A DNA stretch of 64,000 nucleotides, from NCBI RefSeq assembly GCF_014174375.1, contig NZ_JABEQE010000010.1, positions 1 to 64,000 of the forward strand. Reading direction: 5' to 3'. This document shows positions 2,598-50,121 of this stretch, one piece after another. Every line of letters begins with the position of its first letter. The stretch's first letter is position 1. The translations under genes and the position numbers were made by a program. The DNA comes from Gluconacetobacter asukensis (lineage in GTDB: Bacteria; Pseudomonadota; Alphaproteobacteria; Acetobacterales; Acetobacteraceae). The notes beneath the pieces were generated by a model. It had not been told where the DNA came from and did not search any database. It saw nothing but the letters and a program-made list of their open reading frames with translations.

Positions 2598-3626
2598 CTA
2601 TGTGAGCCGCCTGATGGCATCTGCCATGTGGTCCGCGCTGACTGCAGCATACCTCTGAACCATCGCCGGGCTGCTCCATCCGCCTAGACGCATCAGCGTC
2701 ACGAGATCGCACCCGGTCATCACCATCCACGATGCCCAATGGTGCCGCCATGAATGGGGCGTAAACCCGACGATGCCAGCGCGCTTGCATGCTGTCCGAT
2801 GGGCTTTGGTGATCGGGTTCCCACCCTCCTTTTTCTCAGCCGTATCTGTGTATGGTCTTCCCCACCGGTTCAGGAACACTGGGCCTACGGAGGGGCGTCC
2901 GCATGCAATCCATATCTCCCGCAGCGCATCAAACACGCGCGGGTGCATTGGAACGGACCGCTGGCGCCCGCTCTTGCTCTTCGCCACGAATATTGATCGG
3001 CGCGAGAAATCAACATGCTTCCAGTCGAGCCGGAGAGCCTCAGCCGACCGTAGCCCCTGAAAGCACAGAACCAGAGCGATCGGCCGTACGTGATCGGCAT
3101 AGGATTCCAAAAGCCGATCTTGTTCGGCTTTCGTAAGCCACGCCGCTACTTCCTGGGTCTTTTGCTTCACCACGGATATCCGCGGCGCAACAACTCCATT
3201 CACTTTCGCGCTGGCATTGATTGCGGCCTGGAAAATTGCACGCCATCTTGCTTGTGTCGCCAGCGCCATGCGACGCCCTCGCGTTGACAGCCAGAACTGC
3301 CATGCATTTTCAGCCTGCGATATAGCATAGTGGCCAATGCGCGGGTTCATGTCCGATAGCCGGGCGACATCGTACCGTTCGGGTGGGTTGGGGCCTCCGA
3401 GATAGTCGCTGATGGCTTGGGCGATCGTGATCTTGTTCGCTGTTACACTCGGGCCGTCGATGCGCTCGCTCCGGATACGGGCTTCTTCGGCCGCTCCAAT
3501 AGCTTCAGCATCTGTTCTTGAACGGCATCCTGTATTGACTTCTTTGACGGCGACAGTTTCACGACCGACGCGGACCGTCCCGCGGACGTACCAATAATCA
3601 CCGCGCTTGCGGTAGGATAGGGACAA
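2598..3626 (-). CDS. int: Tyrosine-type site-specific integrase
   Basis: A 342-residue tyrosine recombinase. The N-terminal arm-binding part (YRKRGDYWYVRGTVRVG) is followed by a core-binding domain and a catalytic domain from about residue 160. All catalytic residues can be placed: R193 (GLRSAEAL), K216/K218 (AKSKSGR), H291 and R294 (HSWRHH), W317 (LGGW) and the nucleophile Y326 (VQRYAAVS). It should catalyse integration at the tRNA-Gly site about 115 nt away. Its first 60 or so codons overlap the excisionase-like gene in another frame. It is the last gene of the leftward early arm, so expression in the lysogen depends on read-through or a local promoter. Confidence 0.96.
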   Translation of the reverse strand: MSLSYRKRGDYWYVRGTVRVGRETVAVKEVNTGCRSRTDAEAIGAAEEARIRSERIDGPSVTANKITIAQAISDYLGGPNPPERYDVARLSDMNPRIGHYAISQAENAWQFWLSTRGRRMALATQARWRAIFQAAINASAKVNGVVAPRISVVKQKTQEVAAWLTKAEQDRLLESYADHVRPIALVLCFQGLRSAEALRLDWKHVDFSRRSIFVAKSKSGRQRSVPMHPRVFDALREIWIACGRPSVGPVFLNRWGRPYTDTAEKKEGGNPITKAHRTACKRAGIVGFTPHSWRHHWASWMVMTGCDLVTLMRLGGWSSPAMVQRYAAVSADHMADAIRRLT

Positions 3627-3790
3627 CGCAATGCTTTCTGGATCTGGCCGACATCGGCCTCAGTGAAATAGATTGTCCGGCCGATCTTGATGCATGAGAG
3701 ATTCGGAACGGACGGCAGGTGGCGGCGCAGGGTCTTTTCAGAAATTCCCAAGCGTTGCGCGAGATCGGCGCGGGAGACCAAATCACTCAT
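3443..3790 (-). CDS. Excisionase-like helix-turn-helix protein
   Basis: A 115-residue protein. Residues 1-55 form a MerR/excisionase-type DNA-binding unit: LVSRADLAQRLGISEKTLRR helix-turn-helix, then the wing IKIGRTIYFTEADV. The remaining 60 residues are low-complexity, rich in Ser, Ala and Lys, and lie entirely over the 5' end of the integrase gene in a different frame (184-nt overlap). Position and fold suggest the Xis directionality factor. The long overlap could tie integrase translation to Xis synthesis. The tail may have little function of its own because it is constrained by the int frame. Confidence 0.75.
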   Translation of the reverse strand: MSDLVSRADLAQRLGISEKTLRRHLPSVPNLSCIKIGRTIYFTEADVGQIQKALRCPYPTASAVIIGTSAGRSASVVKLSPSKKSIQDAVQEQMLKLLERPKKPVSGASASTARV

Positions 3791-3983
3791 TCCCTACCTC
3801 CCTGGCCCGCGCTGCCACAATGCCCGGATTCCGCACCTCCGCAATTTTGATCAGTGTCAGGATCGCAGCGGCATCTAGGCCATCCGTTACGGTTCCTTTG
3901 GCCCTCGCATCGGCGTAGATCAGCCGGGCGCGCTCGATCGCCTGCGCCCTCGGCAGGAATCGTGGAGTTATATGGTCAGCCAT
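3783..3983 (-). CDS. Hypothetical early phage protein
   Basis: A 66-residue, mainly helical protein with no recognised domain. Its stop overlaps the start of the excisionase-like gene by 8 nt, and its start overlaps the stop of the next upstream gene by the same amount, so it belongs to the coupled leftward early operon. The overlapping arrangement is the main reason to accept it as a gene. Confidence 0.6.
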   Translation of the reverse strand: MADHITPRFLPRAQAIERARLIYADARAKGTVTDGLDAAAILTLIKIAEVRNPGIVAARAREVGNE

Positions 3984-4317
3984 CGCCCTGTCCCTCCCGG
4001 TCCATAGCCGCGTCGATGGCGGCGCGGACGATGCTCGCCAGTTCGTCGGCCGTAACCAGCATCATGTCGGGCGCGTCGTCTGGAGACGATCTGTCCGGCA
4101 GTTCGGCGACAGCCTGCAGGACAGTAGCGGGCACGTCGTCCAGCGCCTCCCGCAGCCGCTCGTTCTCGGCCTGGAGGGCGGATTTAGCGCGCACCTCGAA
4201 CTCGGCTGCGTGCCGTTCGGCAGTCATGATCGACACGCCATCACCCATTCCGGTCTCGAACATAAGCTCATCGGCCAGTTCTTTAATCTGCTCTTCCCGC
4301 GTCCTGTGCTGGGTCAT
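3976..4317 (-). CDS. Hypothetical early phage protein with coiled coil
   Basis: A 113-residue protein. The first half (REEQIKELADELMFETG, then AKSALQAENERLREAL) has a heptad pattern consistent with a coiled coil; the C-terminal half is acidic. No catalytic motif was seen. The ATG at 4317 overlaps the stop of the upstream winged-helix gene as ATGA, which favours it over the in-frame ATG at 4329. Confidence 0.6.
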   Translation of the reverse strand: MTQHRTREEQIKELADELMFETGMGDGVSIMTAERHAAEFEVRAKSALQAENERLREALDDVPATVLQAVAELPDRSSPDDAPDMMLVTADELASIVRAAIDAAMDREGQGDG

Positions 4318-4523
4318 GCCCGCCTCCAACGGATCGGCGCATCATGCGATCGGGTGATGATCCCCTTGCGCTCCAAAGCCCGCAGCGCCCCGTAAACAGC
4401 CCGCGTAAAAGCACCGAGCCGGCTCGCGACCTGATCCGTGCGGGGATCAAATCCGCCTGATGAGGGTGCGACCGCGTCCAGAACACGCTGCTGCCATGGG
4501 GTCAGTTGCGGTTCCTGGGTCAT
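4314..4523 (-). CDS. Small winged-helix-like protein
   Basis: A 69-residue protein. TPWQQRVLDAV, VASRLGAFTRAVYGALRALE and KGIITRS read as the helices and wing of a MarR/PadR-like winged helix, suggesting DNA binding. This rests on the residue pattern only. It is coupled by short overlaps to genes on both sides in the leftward early operon. Confidence 0.6.
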   Translation of the reverse strand: MTQEPQLTPWQQRVLDAVAPSSGGFDPRTDQVASRLGAFTRAVYGALRALERKGIITRSHDAPIRWRRA

Positions 4524-4798
4524 GGGGCATCTCCTCTAGAGGCGGGCCATCCAGCCTGCCCGCTCATCCTCATCTCCACCAGATCACGAAACCATTTCAG
4601 TTTCTCGATTGCTTCGAATTCGTTCGTCGCCTCCGGAATGCCTGGGACAAGAAGGCTGATCCCATCCTTCGCGTGCCGCGCATTGACCGAAACAACATCG
4701 CGCAATTTGCGGGCAGGCCCTCTTCCGCAAGGAAGATCCCCATTCGGGATAGTCTTCCCAAATTCAATTTTCCTGTCTGCATAGCAATAGGCGTACAT
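4520..4798 (-). CDS. Hypothetical early phage protein
   Basis: A 92-residue protein starting MYAYCYADRKIEFG. It contains GDLPCGRGPARKLRDVV and a tryptophan-containing helical end (IEKLKWFRDLVEM). I recall similar small proteins beside phage recombination genes, sometimes labelled host-nuclease inhibitor, but cannot confirm this. The start at 4798 shares TGATG with the stop of the upstream gene, so it is chosen over the in-frame ATG at 4837. Confidence 0.6.
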   Translation of the reverse strand: MYAYCYADRKIEFGKTIPNGDLPCGRGPARKLRDVVSVNARHAKDGISLLVPGIPEATNEFEAIEKLKWFRDLVEMRMSGQAGWPASRGDAP

Positions 4799-6396: not shown

Positions 6397-6656
6397 GCCG
6401 GCACCTGAAGATCGAGAATCCTCCGCGTTTCTTCGTGATCAACCCATCGCGGGTTGAGCATCGTCCGCTGGAGACGCCCATACCGCACACAGTTCATCAG
6501 ATCGGAAAGAGAGCGATTGCGAAGGGCGGCTGCATGCCAGAGGCGCCCGTTGAGGAGAAACCATTCTCGGCTCTCTGCCAGGGCATCTACTAGTTCGCCG
6601 ACGGTCGCTATCCTCTCTCCAGCAATCCACTTGCGCGGCTTCTTCGCCCAACTCAT
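6393..6656 (-). CDS. Hypothetical early phage protein
   Basis: An 87-residue basic protein (starts MSWAKKPRKWIAGERI; middle LVDALAESREWFLLNGRLWHAA). The tryptophan- and arginine-rich composition suggests nucleic-acid contact but no family is recognised. The gene overlaps the stop-start junctions of both neighbours in the early operon. Confidence 0.6.
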   Translation of the reverse strand: MSWAKKPRKWIAGERIATVGELVDALAESREWFLLNGRLWHAAALRNRSLSDLMNCVRYGRLQRTMLNPRWVDHEETRRILDLQVPA

Positions 6657-7531
6657 GCCGGCACCTCTTCCGCATCAGCCTCGGCATGCTCAGCCGCCCG
6701 CTGATGCTCGATCTGCTGCATGTCGGCCATCCGGTCGCTGATCATCGCCTGCACGCGCTCGATGATCTCCGGCGCGATCGGGCGTCCGGCCTCCTGTGCC
6801 TTTTCGACAGTCTGCGCCCATGCGCGCCACTGACCGTCCACGCAGGCGATATCGGTGCATTTCAGCAGCCGCGCATCGAACAGGGCTTCGTAGTCGATCG
6901 GGCGCCGCTCTTCGGTGACGCGAGACTGGGGCGCTGTCGAGCGTTCGGGCGTCACGTCGATGACCGTGCCGCGATAGTTGTCCGGCGGGATATCTGACGC
7001 CTCTTCCGCCGTGATCAGCCCCTTGAGCACATCCGGAAACGCATCGCGCAGAGCGAACCCGCGAGCACGCATCTGGAGCATGCGCTTGGGGTATTGCGTC
7101 CACGGGCCTTGCTTGGACCACAGACCGGCCTTCTTCGCGTCATCCACGCTGAACTCGGCACGCACCGGCTTCTTACCTGTGCGCGTGGCGATGCAGATCG
7201 CGACCATCTTGTCGCCTTCGCCCTCGATGCGCTCTTCGATGTCATCGCATACCGAAGACTGGCGACAGAGAGCGGGCAGTGCATCGCCCCATACGCTCGG
7301 CCGGCCATTCACCACGGCGATATTCTGGATGGCCTGCATCGGCGCCAGGCCGAGTTCAGATCCCATCTGCACGGCGATCATGATATTGCCCGGCTTGCCG
7401 CGGAAGTCCTTCGGCATCAGATCGGAGCCGGCCGCCATCTTGGCGAACTCCATCAGTTCGCCGAACGACTGCGGCTGGAGAACGGGCATCGGCGTGGCGC
7501 CACGGGCGCCAGACTTCACAACGGCATTCAT
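6653..7531 (-). CDS. recT: RecT-family single-strand annealing recombinase
   Basis: A 292-residue protein. The core SFGELMEFAKMAAGSDLMPK, then the GNIMIAVQMGSELGLAPMQA helix, GRPSVWGDALPAL and the basic end of the core KRMLQMRARGFALRDAFPD, are characteristic of phage RecT/Bet-like annealases. It would anneal complementary strands in phage recombination and replication. No RecE/Exo nuclease is adjacent, so a host nuclease or an unrecognised neighbour may supply the 5'-3' resection. The ATG at 7531 overlaps the upstream stop (ATGA) and is favoured over the longer open frame to 7780, whose extension is out-of-frame Gp157 sequence. Confidence 0.88.
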   Translation of the reverse strand: MNAVVKSGARGATPMPVLQPQSFGELMEFAKMAAGSDLMPKDFRGKPGNIMIAVQMGSELGLAPMQAIQNIAVVNGRPSVWGDALPALCRQSSVCDDIEERIEGEGDKMVAICIATRTGKKPVRAEFSVDDAKKAGLWSKQGPWTQYPKRMLQMRARGFALRDAFPDVLKGLITAEEASDIPPDNYRGTVIDVTPERSTAPQSRVTEERRPIDYEALFDARLLKCTDIACVDGQWRAWAQTVEKAQEAGRPIAPEIIERVQAMISDRMADMQQIEHQRAAEHAEADAEEVPA

Positions 7532-7992
7532 GCTGCCTGATCCTTTCGTGCCTTGATCTGGATATGCCCGGCACCGCCGTTCGACAGTTCGGCCCCATCG
7601 ACCATGATCCCGGCCTTGAGCAATTTTGTGAGTGCAGCCGTGTCGAGATTGTCCGGCTGCGGCTTGAACAGATCCGGCCGCGCCGCGCGCAGCTTCTTCA
7701 GATCGGTGACTGTTGCGCGCTGGGCGCCGGCGACGTGCGAGGCAGAGAAGTTCAGCGTGTCGAACTGGAGGATGCCGCATTCCAGCATTTCGTCGTGGAC
7801 TGATGCCCGCAGTGCCTCACGCGCCGCCTTGGCTGCCTTCCCCAGTTCGTCCAGCGCCTCGGCCAGTTCAACTTCGCACTGGTCAACCTCGGCGCCATCC
7901 GCACGAGACGCTATGATCCAGCGCACATACCGGTCGATAGCGGGCTTGAGGTCGTCAGCATGCAGCTTGTTGATGAGGTCCAGGCCCTTCAT
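7528..7992 (-). CDS. Gp157-like phage protein
   Basis: A 154-residue protein. The N-terminal helices (LHADDLKPAIDRYVRWI, EVELAEALDELGKAAKAARE) lead to a beta-rich end with LKAGIMVDGAEL and IQIKARK. This resembles the siphovirus Gp157 family, often found beside RecT or single-strand-binding genes; the match is to the general pattern, not exact. It is directly coupled to recT (ATGA), suggesting a shared job in DNA recombination. The start at 7992 overlaps the preceding stop; an in-frame ATG at 8028 lies inside the upstream gene. Confidence 0.6.
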   Translation of the reverse strand: MKGLDLINKLHADDLKPAIDRYVRWIIASRADGAEVDQCEVELAEALDELGKAAKAAREALRASVHDEMLECGILQFDTLNFSASHVAGAQRATVTDLKKLRAARPDLFKPQPDNLDTAALTKLLKAGIMVDGAELSNGGAGHIQIKARKDQAA

Positions 7993-8192
7993 ACCGGCGC
8001 CCTCCCGCAAACCCGCAGCGAAGGCCATGGACGCGGCGGCGCGGGCATGCGCACCGGTTCACGCTCCTGGCGCACGATCTCGACGGACCGTCCTATCTCC
8101 GCCAGCAGCCGAGCGGCATCGGCGGAGTATTGCAGCAGCATCCGGCGCAGGACCAGTGCGCGGGCCGCGTGGTTCGTGTGGTGGTGGGTCAT
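7989..8192 (-). CDS. Hypothetical small early protein
   Basis: A 67-residue protein beginning MTHHHTNHAARALVLRR; histidine- and arginine-rich with one amphipathic helix. GGAGGGTG stands 5-6 nt before the ATG at 8192, and the ATG overlaps the stop of the tiny zinc-ribbon gene upstream. No family is recognised. Confidence 0.55.
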   Translation of the reverse strand: MTHHHTNHAARALVLRRMLLQYSADAARLLAEIGRSVEIVRQEREPVRMPAPPRPWPSLRVCGRAPV

Positions 8193-8350
8193 TGTGACAC
8201 CCTCCGGTTCTGATTCTCGCGTTCTCTCAATTCTGCGGAAAAGCATTCGAAGCACTTCCCCCAGTCAGGATCGCCTTCGGGCGCAATTCTCCGGCCGCAT
8301 TCGGCACAGCACTGCTGGTCCCAGCCAGGCTTAAGCCACCAGAGGCTCAT
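8189..8350 (-). CDS. Tiny zinc-ribbon protein
   Basis: A 53-residue open frame. ATG at 8350 shares ATGA with the upstream stop, and its own stop shares ATGA with the downstream start. Residues 14-37 contain CCAECGRRIAPEG and KCFECF: two CxxC pairs spaced as in a zinc ribbon. The C-terminus is charged (ELRERENQNRR). It was found by reading the frame between two accepted genes. It probably binds nucleic acid or a protein partner; no assigned function. Confidence 0.65.
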   Translation of the reverse strand: MSLWWLKPGWDQQCCAECGRRIAPEGDPDWGKCFECFSAELRERENQNRRVSQ

Positions 8351-8646
8351 ATCTCCGCCACCATCTCGATCGTCTTGTCGTCGCCTTCGAGCATCTCGAT
8401 CGCGTCATCGATCGCTGGCAGAAGCTCCGCACCGGCGTAAAGCTCGCGTGGATAGCTCTGGCGCGGCGCCTTCTTGTGCAGCGCCTCGATCTTCTTCTTG
8501 GCTTCCTTCATGACCGCGATACTCCCGCGTACGAGGTCAAGATCCTGCCAGGCCGCATTGCGGAACGAATTGCTCTGCGCCGGCGGCGTGAAATACGGAT
8601 GGTTCGGCGCCGACGAATGCGACGTCATGCCTTCGGGATAGGGCAT
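8347..8646 (-). CDS. Hypothetical early phage protein
   Basis: A 99-residue protein. A Pro/Ser-rich N-terminus is followed by helices (IAVMKEAKKKIEALHKKAP) and an acidic end (AIEMLEGDDKTIEMVAEI). GGGGGA lies about 8 nt before the ATG. Family unknown. It heads the tightly coupled block that runs down to integrase. Confidence 0.6.
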   Translation of the reverse strand: MPYPEGMTSHSSAPNHPYFTPPAQSNSFRNAAWQDLDLVRGSIAVMKEAKKKIEALHKKAPRQSYPRELYAGAELLPAIDDAIEMLEGDDKTIEMVAEI

Positions 8647-8721: not shown

Positions 8722-10083
8722 TCAGGCAGCGACTGCCAGATGCTGGAACACATCCCCCGTCAGTCCCCAGGTCGAGGCGCGCGCATTCAGCGGCGTCATT
8801 TCCTGAGGCGCTCCAACCCATCCATCGCGCGCACGGAACGGGCGGCACTCCGGATGCACGCGCAGCCAGAATTCACGAATCGTGCCGTCTGGCTCGACCG
8901 TATTGTTCTTCACATGCAGCATGATGATCGGCGTGTCGTCATCGCGATCTTTTCTGTACAGATCTCCATGAATCGGATCATGTGCGATCATCTTCGCGCC
9001 GCCCTCGCGGATATAGCGTTCCGTGCCGAAGACCTCGATCATGACGCGGCGGATCTCAGCGTTTGTTTCTGCCTCGATCGAATCCGGTGTGACGCTGGCC
9101 TTATCTTCGATGATCGATGCGGGCACGCGGACACCGCCCACCGCATGGACACTCCATCCATCTGCGAAAGCCACCGCAGCACCATCGATATTATGCAAGC
9201 GCCCGCGATCATCACGATGGATCTGCGTCGGCCGATCGCATGCTACGATCATGCCATCGCGAGGATAGAACCACATGCATGACATGCCGATCTCGTTCAT
9301 GATGTCCAGCCGATCGGCAACGTCATCGGGATATTTGACACCGATCTCTGCCACGAATTTATAGAGTGCGATCCAATAGAGATCCTGCTGCCCCCACCAA
9401 TATGTGCTGGTGAATTCGATCCCGAGCTGGCCCCGGAGCTGGCCCCGGAGCTGGCCCCGGAGCTGGTCCCAGAGCTGGCCCCGGAGCTGGCCCCCGAGCT
9501 GGTCCCAGAGCTGGTCCCGGAGCTGGTCCCGGAGCTGGCCCCGGAGCTGGCCCCAGAGCTGGCTCCCGAGCTGTTCCCAGAGCTGGCCCCCGAGCTGGTC
9601 CCGGAGCTGGCCCCCGAGCTGGCCCCGGAGCTGGCCCCAGAGCTGGCTCCCGAGCTGGTCCCAGAGCTGGTCCCGGAGCTGGTCCCGGAGCTGGCCCCGG
9701 AGCTGGCCCCGGAGCTGGTCCCCGAGCTGGTCCCAGAGCTGGTCCCGGAGCTGGCCCTCGAGCTGGCCCCCGAGCTGGTCCCAGAGCTGGCCCTCGAGCT
9801 GGCCCCCGAGCTGGTCCCAGAGCTGGCCCCCGAGCTGGTCCTCGCCGGTATCTTTCAGTGCCAGATGCTTCATCGCAGAGAGCGCGAAACAGCATCCCAT
9901 GGGGCTGGACATCCAAATCACGGGAACCGGTTCTTTCCCGATGATACGATATGCACGCGCGAATGCCGCCTCTGCCCGCTTCTTATCGGTCGGCGCGGTG
10001 GATAATCCGTGCGCAAGGTATTCGGCGCGGAATTCGACCAGGCGCTGTTCTTGTTCTGCCGTCAGGCGTTCGATCTTGCTCAT
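8722..10083 (-). CDS. DUF6745-like protein with 35 tetrapeptide repeats
   Basis: A 453-residue protein in three parts. Residues 1-81 are a helical N-terminal region. Residues 82-221 are 35 uninterrupted tetrapeptides of the form (D/G/S/E)-Q-L-(R/G/W/E). Residues 222-453 are a globular part with [35 protein letters not shown] and DPIHGDLY, which resembles the DUF6745 family. No enzymatic motif is recognised and the function is unknown. The period of four with invariant Gln-Leu would place the Leu residues on one face, as in a repeat solenoid or coiled rod. ATG at 10083 follows the upstream stop by 2 nt. The repeat DNA makes copy-number change by slippage likely. Confidence 0.8.
9421..9840 (-). 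repeat. 12-bp tandem repeat array, 35 units
   Basis: On the + strand the unit reads GAGCTGG(C/T)CCC(C/A/G)(C/G/A), copied 35 times in frame with the minus-strand gene. The constant part encodes Gln-Leu and only the outer codons vary, so selection for the encoded pattern is likely. The opposite strand is also open throughout (Ser-Trp-Pro-Arg type repeats), which is a by-product. Confidence 0.95.
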
Positions 10084-10085
10084 GA

Positions 10086-10463
10086 TCAGTCGACCACCTG
10101 AATCGGTTCCATCGCATCCGACCACTGGCTCTGCAGCTCAACCAGATAGGTCGTGGCGTTCAGCGCGATGTCGGCGTGCTCGCCGGTCGGCGCGGTGCCG
10201 TGCAGATGCTGGATCGGCGCAGGCTCGTTCAGCGTCACGAACTCGGCACGCGGACCATATCCGGCGCCATCGTCACGGAAGCGCGCGATGCGGTCCGAGA
10301 TGATCGTGTGGCGATGGCCGGACGTTTCGCCCAGGGCCAGCACCGTTTCGGTCTGGCCGGTCACAGTCTTCGTCATCGCGATCGGCTCGGCGCGCGTCGA
10401 CAGCGTCGCTTCGATCAGCAGGACATCGCCCTGGTGGACGAGGTGGGGGATTTTCTTCGTCAC
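10086..10463 (-). CDS. Hypothetical early phage protein
   Basis: A 125-residue, beta-rich protein starting with GTG at 10463 (GGGAG about 7 nt upstream). VHQGDVLLIEA, TVLALGETSGHRHTI and HADIALNATTYLVELQSQW give a jelly-roll-like strand pattern with several histidines (GHRHT, QHLHG). I recall this as a common small phage protein of unknown role; cupin-like metal binding is possible but unproven. Confidence 0.65.
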   Translation of the reverse strand: MTKKIPHLVHQGDVLLIEATLSTRAEPIAMTKTVTGQTETVLALGETSGHRHTIISDRIARFRDDGAGYGPRAEFVTLNEPAPIQHLHGTAPTGEHADIALNATTYLVELQSQWSDAMEPIQVVD

Positions 10464-11342: not shown

Positions 11343-11999
11343 CTAAATTCTGCGTGAAAACCAGACGACGCGCCCCAGCATTCGGCACCTTTCGGCCTCT
11401 ACCTCATACGGTGGGAATCGGCTGTTTTCAGAGGCAAGACGCAGCATCGCCGGATCAGATCCATGGACCCTCTGCACCCACTTGCAGACCACACCATCGC
11501 CATCGAACAGGACAAAGATCCCCTCCATGGCGACGTTCCGCTTGCGGAGATCTACCAGCACGGTATCGCCGCTGCGCAAGAGAGGCTCCATAGACTGCCC
11601 CTCGACCTCAACAACGCAAAGGTCCTCAGGCTGGGCCCTCAACTCGCGGGTGATAAAACCCTCTTCGAAGTAGCGAGGTGCCCCCAGGTAGGCATCGTCG
11701 ATGATGCCCCCACCGCCAGCACCAGCCCTGATATCAAGGGTGGCAACTGGAAGGTATGCCGGCGCCGCGGAAACAGGATGCTGCGTCGGCAAATCGGGCT
11801 CTTCAACCCATGCTCCAGTCCCACCTAAGCGCCTCTGGAGATATTCTCGCACGGCGATGAGCTTATCCGACGCCGGCAGGTTTGCTCCGCGTTTCCATGC
11901 ACTGACCGCCTGACTGGTTACGCCAAATTTCTCTGCGATCTCCTTGTTGGAAATCCCAGCCCGCGTCATTGCGTCTCTTAGATCGTCACCGAAAGACAT
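11343..11999 (-). CDS. cI: CI-type repressor, HTH plus S24 peptidase
   Basis: A 218-residue protein. Residues 1-57 are an XRE helix-turn-helix (NKEIAEKFGVTSQAVSAWKR). Residues about 85-218 are a LexA/CI S24 autopeptidase: cleavage pair A92-G93 (IRAGAG), nucleophile S136 (VEGQSMEPL) and general base K173 (VVCKWVQR), 37 residues apart as the family requires. It should repress the two early promoters and be inactivated by RecA-stimulated self-cleavage after DNA damage. It is divergent from the Cro-like gene across 82 nt of operator DNA. Confidence 0.93.
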   Translation of the reverse strand: MSFGDDLRDAMTRAGISNKEIAEKFGVTSQAVSAWKRGANLPASDKLIAVREYLQRRLGGTGAWVEEPDLPTQHPVSAAPAYLPVATLDIRAGAGGGGIIDDAYLGAPRYFEEGFITRELRAQPEDLCVVEVEGQSMEPLLRSGDTVLVDLRKRNVAMEGIFVLFDGDGVVCKWVQRVHGSDPAMLRLASENSRFPPYEVEAERCRMLGRVVWFSRRI

Positions 12000-49551: not shown

Positions 49552-50121
49552 GTGAAAACAAAACTGATGGCGGCCCTGGTCATGAGCTGCATGATCGTGG
49601 GTGCCTCTGGCGCTTACGCCGATCCGTACGGCCCCGGCGGCCCGAACAGCCAGGGCGATAATCGCGGCCATGGCGGCGGGCCTGGCGATGATCGTGGCGG
49701 GCCGAACAGCCAAGGCGACAATCGCGGCCACGGCGGTGGACCGGGCTATGACCGTGGCGGGCCGAACAACCAGGGCGACAATCGCGGCTATGGCGGTGGA
49801 CCCGGCTATGACCGTGGCCGGCCTACCAATTATGGTGACAATCGCGGCCGTGGACCCGGCGGGCCCGGTTATGACCGTGGCGGTCCCTGGAAAGGTGGTG
49901 GCCGCGTCTGGCGGCGCGGAGATCGCTATGACGGCCCCCGTTCGGGCAACTGGGCAGTGCATGATTGGCGGCGCTATCGCGGCCTCTACGCCCCGCCGCC
50001 AGGCTATTACTGGGTCCAGTACGGCAACCAGTTCCTGCTGACGGCCGTGGCCACCGGCATCATCGCCAGCGTGATCGCCGGCTCCTACGGCGCCGGCCCC
50101 ATGGGTCCCGCGCCGTACTGA
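49552..50121 (+). CDS. RcnB-like periplasmic protein with Gly/Arg/Asp repeats
   Basis: A 189-residue protein. Signal peptide MKTKLMAALVMSCMIVGASG (cleavage near AYA-DP). Residues about 25-110 are four near-identical 20-residue repeats (Gly-rich, with QGDNRG and GPGYDRGG). The C-terminal 60 residues (NWAVHDWRRYRGLYAPPPGY, YWVQYGNQFLLTAVATGIIA) match the RcnB family, which affects Ni/Co homeostasis in E. coli. The repeats may bind metal or act as an unfolded spacer. GTG start, AGGAGAG 7 nt before. Confidence 0.82.
   Translation: MKTKLMAALVMSCMIVGASGAYADPYGPGGPNSQGDNRGHGGGPGDDRGGPNSQGDNRGHGGGPGYDRGGPNNQGDNRGYGGGPGYDRGRPTNYGDNRGRGPGGPGYDRGGPWKGGGRVWRRGDRYDGPRSGNWAVHDWRRYRGLYAPPPGYYWVQYGNQFLLTAVATGIIASVIAGSYGAGPMGPAPY
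49624..49875 (+). repeat. Tandem 60-bp coding repeats
   Basis: About four units of 60 bp encoding a 20-residue Gly/Asp/Arg motif in the RcnB-like gene. The first two are nearly identical in DNA, indicating recent duplication. Confidence 0.85.

Follow-up and report, generated by a model that had tools for sequence, protein, structure and literature searches.

Variable tetrapeptide arrays on a DUF6745 scaffold: a candidate specificity module in a Gluconacetobacter asukensis prophage and its relatives

The gene considered here lies in a prophage of Gluconacetobacter asukensis (contig NZ_JABEQE010000010.1, positions 1 to 64,000 of the forward strand; this whole stretch of 64,000 nucleotides (nt) is termed the window). 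Its product carries 35 tetrapeptide units with an invariant Gln-Leu (QL) core, each encoded by 12 base pairs (bp), between a conserved N-terminal domain and a DUF6745 domain. Within such arrays, most variation falls on two bases of the unit, both of which change amino acids, and synonymous bases are fixed; in relatives, the array changes far faster than the remainder of the gene. These patterns suggest that unit identity, and not array length alone, is under selection. The leading interpretation, at a little short of an even chance, is that this is a specificity array serving in counter-defence or a like recognition role, in conflict between phages or between phage and host. Arrays of this kind are already known from mycobacteriophage Tweety; their placement on a DUF6745 scaffold with a near-constant partner gene appears to be new.

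The array gene and its product

The gene and its adjoining partner occupy the following positions (ORF, open reading frame; HMM, hidden Markov model; pLDDT, predicted local distance difference test):

8722..10083, minus strand: array protein gene (ORF and translation; ATG at 10083, stop ends at 8722; 453 residues)
9844..10083, minus strand: N-terminal domain, residues 1-80 (alignment, HMM matches, AlphaFold pLDDT 90-97 per block over residues 1-70)
9424..9843, minus strand: tetrapeptide array, residues 81-220, 35 units of [WRGE][DGSE]QL with a 12-bp unit
8818..9393, minus strand: DUF6745 domain (PF20530), residues 231-422 (Pfam profile; AlphaFold pLDDT 84-97 per block over residues 241-440)
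10086..10463, minus strand: partner gene, 125 residues, inferred GTG start (conserved neighbour; its stop codon precedes the array-gene ATG by 2 bp)

The window array is a genuine repeat. Tandem Repeats Finder places it at 9424-9838 with a period of 12, 34.6 copies and 0% indels; in coordinates computed from the translation, its 35 uninterrupted units span 9421-9840 when phased as xQLx and 9424-9843 when phased as xxQL. The first variable residue is R in 14 units, G in nine, W in nine and E in three; the second is G in 18, D in 14, S in two and E in one. Both core codons are constant (CAG for Q and CTC for L, each in 35/35 units), as is the third codon base except in one GAA unit. Translation and Tandem Repeats Finder thereby confirm the perfectly phased 12-bp repeat, its 35 QL units and its variable residues, as first described from the letters of the sequence alone (the original prediction). 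The domain then called DUF6745-like now stands on firmer ground, with a match to PF20530 at 168.1 bits against a gathering cut-off of 27 (E=2e-49), and the C-terminal domain is conserved, a point on which that prediction had been staked. Pentapeptide-repeat character is absent from the protein, given the period of 4 residues (12 bp), the lack of indels and the lack of such a Pfam match. The N-terminal domain is common to phage and bacterial homologues (alignment and HMM matches). Arrays of xQLx next to DUF6745, which the original prediction proposed seeking in other genomes, are present in many phage contigs; because the array recurs there with both flanking domains, the window repeat is not a chance occurrence.

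Variation within arrays

Arrays were collected in a survey whose loci are labelled L###. A peptide-based scan of viral contigs yielded 25 loci, and a DNA-pattern scan (four units of NGG-GRY-CAG-CTB) yielded 89 stretches in which part of the unit is fixed by the pattern itself. For 2033 units from 104 distinct QL arrays, none shorter than six units, heterozygosity within an array averages 0.61 at base 1 and 0.45 at base 5 and does not exceed 0.10 at any other base; both hypervariable bases change amino acids. A fairer check against the pattern-fixed scan is offered by the window and peptide-found arrays (25) and by those found through the C-terminal domain, which vary like the DNA-scan arrays. 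Among unit pairs one base apart, 32/637 are synonymous, as against 23.6% of possible single changes, and a synonymous variant is absent from 64/81 arrays (arrays of fewer than 10 units and L028 excluded). This concentration of nonsynonymous change on two bases, together with the fixed synonymous sites, would be left unaccounted for if the array were purely a length ruler, in which only the distance from N-domain to DUF6745 matters (a juxtaposition idea proposed for Tweety gp54); so would the like residue sets found on five different cores. A ruler, consistent with QL counts of 9 to 62 and with Tweety escape mutants that, as reviewed, vary in repeat number, is quite improbable.

QL unit order looks close to random, without the runs of like neighbours expected of slippage. 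In 67 QL arrays (1689 units, some arrays mutually related; those of fewer than 14 units, L028, L009 and L043 excluded), positions 1 and 2 of one unit are independent (p=0.11), as are adjacent position-1 residues (p=0.33), and lag-1 identity of position 1 falls slightly below the shuffled level (z=-2.6). Neutral slippage was simulated with a simple model of our own, at four mutation rates with 60 arrays each; in the simulated arrays, bases 1-6 and the synonymous base 12 vary to a similar degree and identical units adjoin one another too often, neither of which the real arrays display, and none of the four rates attained the real level at base 1. The array is thus very improbable as a neutral minisatellite, a tolerated low-complexity linker that grows and shrinks by slippage, even with a 12-bp period, no indels, fast length change and lag-10 repetition (z=3.2) in favour of one. 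Length variation between lysogens by slippage, as originally proposed, held in part: array length and sequence do differ between near-identical prophages of relatives, and the slippage signature of identical neighbours is absent.

Array-to-array composition shows over-dispersion (chi2/df of 1.96 at position 1 and 3.12 at position 2), and some arrays are without G, W or R. These observations disfavour a multivalent scaffold acting through composition only, that is, a flexible or helical polymer whose overall composition would matter for condensation or avidity as its order and length drift. Such a scaffold would fit the near-random QL order and the low predicted confidence of the array, and the array residues resemble sticker residues; nevertheless, fixed core codons and scant synonymous drift point instead to repeated re-founding and re-diversification, and it is judged unlikely. 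Targets of diversity-generating retroelements are recognized by adenine-specific randomisation and a nearby reverse transcriptase. Judged by base usage, with no search made for a reverse transcriptase, the arrays do not resemble products of adenine randomisation: base 1 takes G, T and, in most arrays, just one of A and C.

As to whether the array acts as a point of recombination, the identity of the N-half correlates with that of the C-half across 35 proteins (r=0.67; Mantel, 0 of 1000). The protein of L020 is a mosaic: its N-half resembles L006/L096 (56-57% identity) and its C-half L014/L079 (47-49%), its N-half sharing only 17-19% with the N-halves of L014/L079, so that the joint lies at or near the array.

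Array turnover between near-identical prophages

Relatives whose flanks are identical have arrays of different length and unit order. The Mycobacterium abscessus prophage prophiGD102-1 (L128; MW584211) and the IMG/VR record L089 match at every position over the 1500 nt upstream and the 3000 nt downstream of arrays of 46 and 19 units, respectively. A second IMG/VR record, L021 (like L089, with no host shown), is identical to both over the 3000 nt after an array of at least 20 units, and unit order differs among the three. L010, with 62 units, is identical over approximately 800 nt before the array and, but for one base, over approximately 660 nt after it. Five further pairs (L015/L067, L073/L103, L094/L096, L095/L107 and L012/L114) are 99-100% identical in a one-sided flank and have partly or wholly different arrays; the comparison covers 240-600 nt, and one member of each pair is contig-cut inside the array, where an assembly artefact is possible. 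For the GD strains as a group, and not for GD102 specifically, the relevant portion of the published methods gives 300-base Illumina reads, some Nanopore sequencing, and finishing in Consed when complete.

Alternative cores and codon usage

Five array cores occur on one architecture: QL, QV (L126, L195, L196, L205, L209 and L218), SL (L127, L129, L197, L198, L200, L202 and L203), SV (L208, L210-L213, L216 and L217) and AV (L181). In the QL, QV, SV and several SL arrays, an NGG codon restricts position 1 mainly to W/R/G; other sets are Y/H/D/R/G in L127, G/E/W/R in L129 and L202, and D/R/N/G/Y in L181, with M and L added in L216 and only R and G present in L200. Fifteen core-codon combinations are found in a set of 104 uninterrupted runs, each 10 units or longer (2397 units in total); the runs are not equivalent to genes, because L188, L202, L207 and L211 give two or three each and those of L207 come from array-only ORFs. 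The modal core codons account for 99.7% and 98.1% of positions in these runs, a synonymous unit variant is absent from 86/104, and a single Arg codon is used in 72/79 runs with at least four Arg. The 15 core-codon combinations, and the single Arg codon of most Arg-bearing runs, argue for convergence.

The diversity of cores also bears on whether the DNA repeat, as a site array or recombination hotspot, is the functional element and the protein repeat its by-product. A single motif, NGG GRC CAG CTY, dominates QL arrays, and the L020 mosaic looks as if swaps had been promoted. However, because the QV, SL, SV and AV arrays are built from other DNA motifs with the same protein period and like residue logic, this possibility is largely refuted and retains only the faintest probability. 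As regards codon choice, Leu in QL arrays is CTC or CTT and practically never CTG, which would create CAGCTG palindromes; CTG is common for Leu outside the array and is used in some SL arrays. Arg is CGG in 11/12 CTT arrays with Arg, and AGG is preferred in CTC arrays (44/67).

Distribution in phages and bacteria

Most phage copies examined carry a tetrapeptide array between the two domains. The loci L029-L117 (87 from the DNA-pattern scan plus L116 and L117) hold 90 array ORFs, of which 40 have both flanks, 42 have one flank before the DNA ends and eight fall outside both groups. The last comprise L045 and L083 (one contig, in another protein), the short L049, L057 and L059, L097 twice and L115, which ends near a contig end; the N-half and C-half of L097 lie in different frames as two ORFs. 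A set of 46 distinct ORFs was assembled in which the N-domain and DUF6745 domain are both present, some of them truncated at contig ends (window duplicates L001 and L002 dropped), and the range of 9 to 62 QL units given above is drawn from these, some of which are contig-cut or contain ambiguous bases. Four further scans used C-domain-only queries, taken from array-bearing genes, and did not require an array. They returned 27 loci, including the three query contigs and the already seen L201, 23 classed as array-bearing and four as array-less (L207, L214, L215 and L219); in L219, the contig end falls within apparent QV units. L207 has a DUF6745 gene without an array (2045-2935) and, on both sides of it, same-strand ORFs (2-955, 1605-2069 and 2929-3405) composed almost wholly of SV-type units (W/G/E/R/V/M with N/T/D). 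Frameshifted copies, which the original prediction had counted against itself, occur in three loci, a minority of those examined: L097, L206 (array in frame with the N-half, C-half in another frame) and L188:683-1929 on Nocardia farcinica plasmid 3, where the frame shifts within a QV array and the annotated DUF6745 gene begins inside or after the array, through either a frameshift or a sequence error.

The module occurs in bacterial genomes and on plasmids as well as in phages; besides phage contigs, records containing it include alphaproteobacteria and actinobacteria (Sphingobium, Hyphomonas, Pseudonocardia, Arthrobacter and Mycobacterium abscessus). In the class of L119, a Pseudonocardia genome, PF20530 is found in 48/394 genomes (44 above the cut-off). 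Only L181 has an array among 50 loci of this class, which were taken from the 30 best rows plus 20 out of another 34 and do not include the array-bearing L119 itself; in array-less loci with both flanks, the intervening stretch is 82-172 residues long and non-repetitive.

Several loci depart from the common architecture. L028 (IMGVR 3300029258_003005, approximately 3725-4640) contains tandem or overlapping short ORFs that are mainly QL array with like tails (EEFNND, KEFNNE); these are stand-alone arrays, with no DUF6745 domain on the 5.6-kb contig. In contig 3300050014_000410 (L045:9190-10011 and L083:1-215), a QL array with only W/R at position 1 lies within an unrelated phage protein for which Pfam gives nothing above cut-off; this protein may be a third array scaffold. 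In L117 (genome G207), the DUF6745 part is joined to repeats that by eye are leucine-rich-repeat-like. L130, on a Streptomyces cadmiisoli plasmid, adjoins STM4013/4014/4015-family genes.

The partner gene

Clustering the neighbours of 44 loci gave a single recurrent family, present at 21 loci and designated the partner, and an HMM was built from these and the window gene. Among non-redundant loci with at least 600 nt either side of the DUF6745 ORF, the partner lies on the same strand within 1.5 kb in 95/104 (46/49 viral; 49/55 in bacterial genomes or plasmids), upstream of the DUF6745 gene in 52 and downstream in 43. The nine partner-less loci are L066, L069 (two genes), L180, L182 and L184-L187; L069:6931-8987 holds two tandem DUF6745 array genes, with no partner detected. 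The N-domain, DUF6745 domain and adjoining partner form a conserved unit in phages and bacterial chromosomes. Among Pseudomonadota, the partner is found in 3/398 genomes, namely the DUF6745 genomes G000 and G381 and, weakly, G422 (E=7e-4); the third DUF6745 genome, G207, which has the leucine-rich-repeat-like fusion, is without it.

Partner proteins share a conserved QGD...GHxH...HxEH...VxD motif, with Q10, G11, H51, H95 and D124 invariant in 26 aligned members. The two invariant histidines (in GHxH and HxEH) prompt the guess that the protein may bind metal. Searches of Pfam (eight members), NCBIfam (five members) and PADLOC (three members) gave no match above cut-off, and a PHROG search matched phrog_27831 only, a family with no assigned function. 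The original prediction had missed the partner gene, along with the two-base nonsynonymous variation and the alternative cores.

Structure and candidate function

The array gene may supply the specificity of a phage conflict module made up of two genes. Selection would act on the residue displayed by each unit, so that the array would serve as a surface for recognition, and 12-bp units recombining with one another would quickly yield new specificities. By analogy with Tweety gp54, the early-expressed protein would bind and block a defence complex or another variable partner from a rival prophage or the host, array change retuning the target. Rapid array change probably matches a shifting opponent, such as the defence system of another virus. 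The counter-defence role guessed at originally has an experimental precedent, in the reported behaviour of gp54, which bears the same kind of array; the flanks of gp54 are unrelated.

In an extended form of this interpretation, which is doubtful though worth entertaining, the array would be the smallest modular recognition code known. About six residue pairs per unit (W/R/G by D/G or D/A), in a string of approximately 9-68 units, would spell a specificity rewritten by recombination between 12-bp units. The array would then be a portable cassette for phage conflicts, carried on five cores, at least two unrelated scaffolds (DUF6745 plus partner, and Tweety gp54) and even as separate genes (L207).

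Ranked second, as possible but unlikely, is prophage defence: a module expressed in the lysogen, whose array recognizes a component of an incoming phage and whose partner or DUF6745 domain stops the infection. The module looks accessory (of 17 phage records matching the 3.2-kb region of prophiGD102-1, only that prophage itself covers at least 80%), it is also present in bacterial genomes and plasmids, and fungal repeats of like evolutionary pattern are described as parts of receptors. Against defence, the window module sits between the repressor and RecT/Gam genes of an early operon, and neither protein is well matched by any PADLOC model (best E 0.023 in PADLOC-DB, confined to the array itself).

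Several observations weigh against assigning a specificity role in phage conflict. Structure prediction gives the array no confident fold: in the AlphaFold model of the full protein (37 sequences), the array has a confidence of 41-63 per 10-residue block, and when modelled alone (alignment of 16 arrays) it forms one long helix with pLDDT 75 and a predicted template modelling score (pTM) of 0.27. These models are too uncertain to establish the solenoid or rod originally suggested. Unit order is not wholly random, as position 2 is weakly associated with the next position 1 (p=0.008), lag-10 matches are enriched as given above, and the SL array of L198 alternates by eye. Array composition also ranges widely (R 0-71%, G 0-83%). 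With regard to sampling, the DNA-pattern scan supplied most QL arrays, many of its stretches being contigs already found or two ends of one contig, and many loci come from metagenomic or short-read assemblies in which the contig stops inside the array. The bacterial DUF6745 homologues examined mostly lack the array and retain the partner, and the core function may therefore be something else. Tweety gp54 itself has an AA core and not QL, QV, SL, SV or AV, and its flanks are non-homologous; since it shares neither flanking domain with the window protein and is without the partner, function rests on analogy of the array. The discoverers of gp54 remark that such repeats often accompany unstructured proteins (PMC2884959). 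Finally, no function for DUF6745 was found in the open-licence literature, which likewise yielded nothing in print on the DUF6745 scaffold, the partner, their breadth, the alternative cores or the evidence on unit identity.

Foldseek against the PDB found no match to the full-length model at E<=0.001 (best 0.3), and VIA-align gave no Z above 4.1 for the Foldseek candidates; both used the full-length model, and the single domains may yet have a known fold. Array matches to DUF668 (L127: 32.7 bits, cut-off 24), Gly-zipper_OmpA (L181: 46.3 bits, cut-off 27), DUF826, Trigger_C and Minor_tail_Z were rejected, being judged matches of composition.

If arrays do set specificity, phages would possess a recognition system that recombination can rapidly rewrite, and arrays would offer a way of asking which defences phages meet. 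Natural material is at hand in alleles with the same flanks and different arrays, array-less homologues with a partner, and two unrelated scaffolds.

Genomic setting

The array gene lies between the S24 repressor and RecT/Gam genes of an early operon, which upholds the early phage operon of the original prediction. Its surroundings are given for context:

11343..11999, minus strand: S24-type repressor (HTH_3 and Peptidase_S24; Pfam), upstream
8347..8646, minus strand: downstream neighbour of 99 residues, no family in Pfam and PHROG searches
6653..8028, minus strand: RecT-like annealing protein and Gp157/Mu Gam-like gene, downstream (profile matches)
2410-2484: tRNA-Gly (gcc), near an integrase gene at 2598-3626

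The tRNA-Gly is possibly the attachment site of the prophage, which, besides the integrase, encodes a terminase and a portal protein (Pfam/PHROG). Among 100 relatives, only the window's own genome is positive for PF20530, and we infer that the array gene arrived with the prophage. A second tandem repeat in the window, at 49636-49883, has a 60-bp unit and 4.1 copies. Elsewhere, among the first 25 of 104 PHROG families, those named most often for neighbouring ORFs (simple ORF caller, n=104 taken from 146) were integrase, RecE exonuclease, Erf, DnaB, replication initiation and primase, with one to four ORFs apiece. The array gene of prophiGD102-1 has Gam, ERF, RepA-like and WhiB genes as neighbours.

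Comparison with known systems

The PF20530 proteins of bacterial chromosomes and plasmids resemble the window protein in their N-domain, DUF6745 domain and, mostly, adjoining partner, and differ in that 49/50 loci are without an array. Transcription activator-like (TAL) effectors contain helical repeats of 33-35 residues with two adjacent variable residues per unit, which read DNA bases; the window array is similar in its near-identical repeats with two variable residues and differs in its unit of 4 residues.

The fungal WD, ANK and TPR repeats of nucleotide-binding, leucine-rich-repeat-type receptors (NLRs) have units far longer than 4 residues and belong to eukaryotic proteins of the STAND class (signal transduction ATPases with numerous domains). 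A Pfam scan of the window protein at E<=1 found no STAND NTPase, WD, ANK or TPR domain. Those fungal NLR repeats whose internal conservation is high (het-e/hnwd WD) are described as showing concerted evolution, diversifying selection and length polymorphism and as controlling recognition specificity; like the arrays described here, they consist of near-identical units with a like evolutionary pattern. In Bordetella phage BMP-1, VR2 of bbp36 is an element repeated 9-20 times depending on isolate and dispensable for growth (as cited in PMC2884959). It differs from the window array in being a 24-bp element with 5-bp spacers, and is likened to it by description only.

The closest counterpart is Tweety gp54 with its relatives Che8 gp57 and PMC gp51 (phrog_3416), which shares with the window protein a 12-bp tetrapeptide unit of two fixed and two variable residues. 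As described in the section on gp54, its 12-bp units have two invariant alanines, variable G/W/Q and S/Y residues and invariant third positions, and the authors conclude that the repeat pattern is 'consistent with selection for variation' (Pham et al. 2007; PMC2884959). Repeat number is 48 in Tweety, 26 in Che8 and 15 in PMC, with ends more than 95% identical (PMC2884959). By our own count, the core codons GCC GCA are invariant in 49/49 units of gp54 (48 units in the paper). Escape mutants of gp54 with more or fewer repeats are reviewed as retuning counter-defence against the defences of the Phrann or MichelleMyBell prophages (PMC9262239; PMC8549241). In the passages cited, gp54 is described for one mycobacteriophage group and its mechanism as obscure (PMC2884959; PMC8549241). 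No significant match was obtained between gp54, gp53 or gp55 and the N-domain, C-domain or partner HMMs; gp54, which matches phrog_3416, has no Pfam domain, and the window protein has no match to phrog_3416 at E<=0.1. Judged from these profile comparisons, the window protein appears not to be a homologue of gp54 in its flanks, yet it bears the same kind of array. Tweety-like array logic also occurs on an unrelated scaffold, in phage contigs and in alphaproteobacterial and actinobacterial records.

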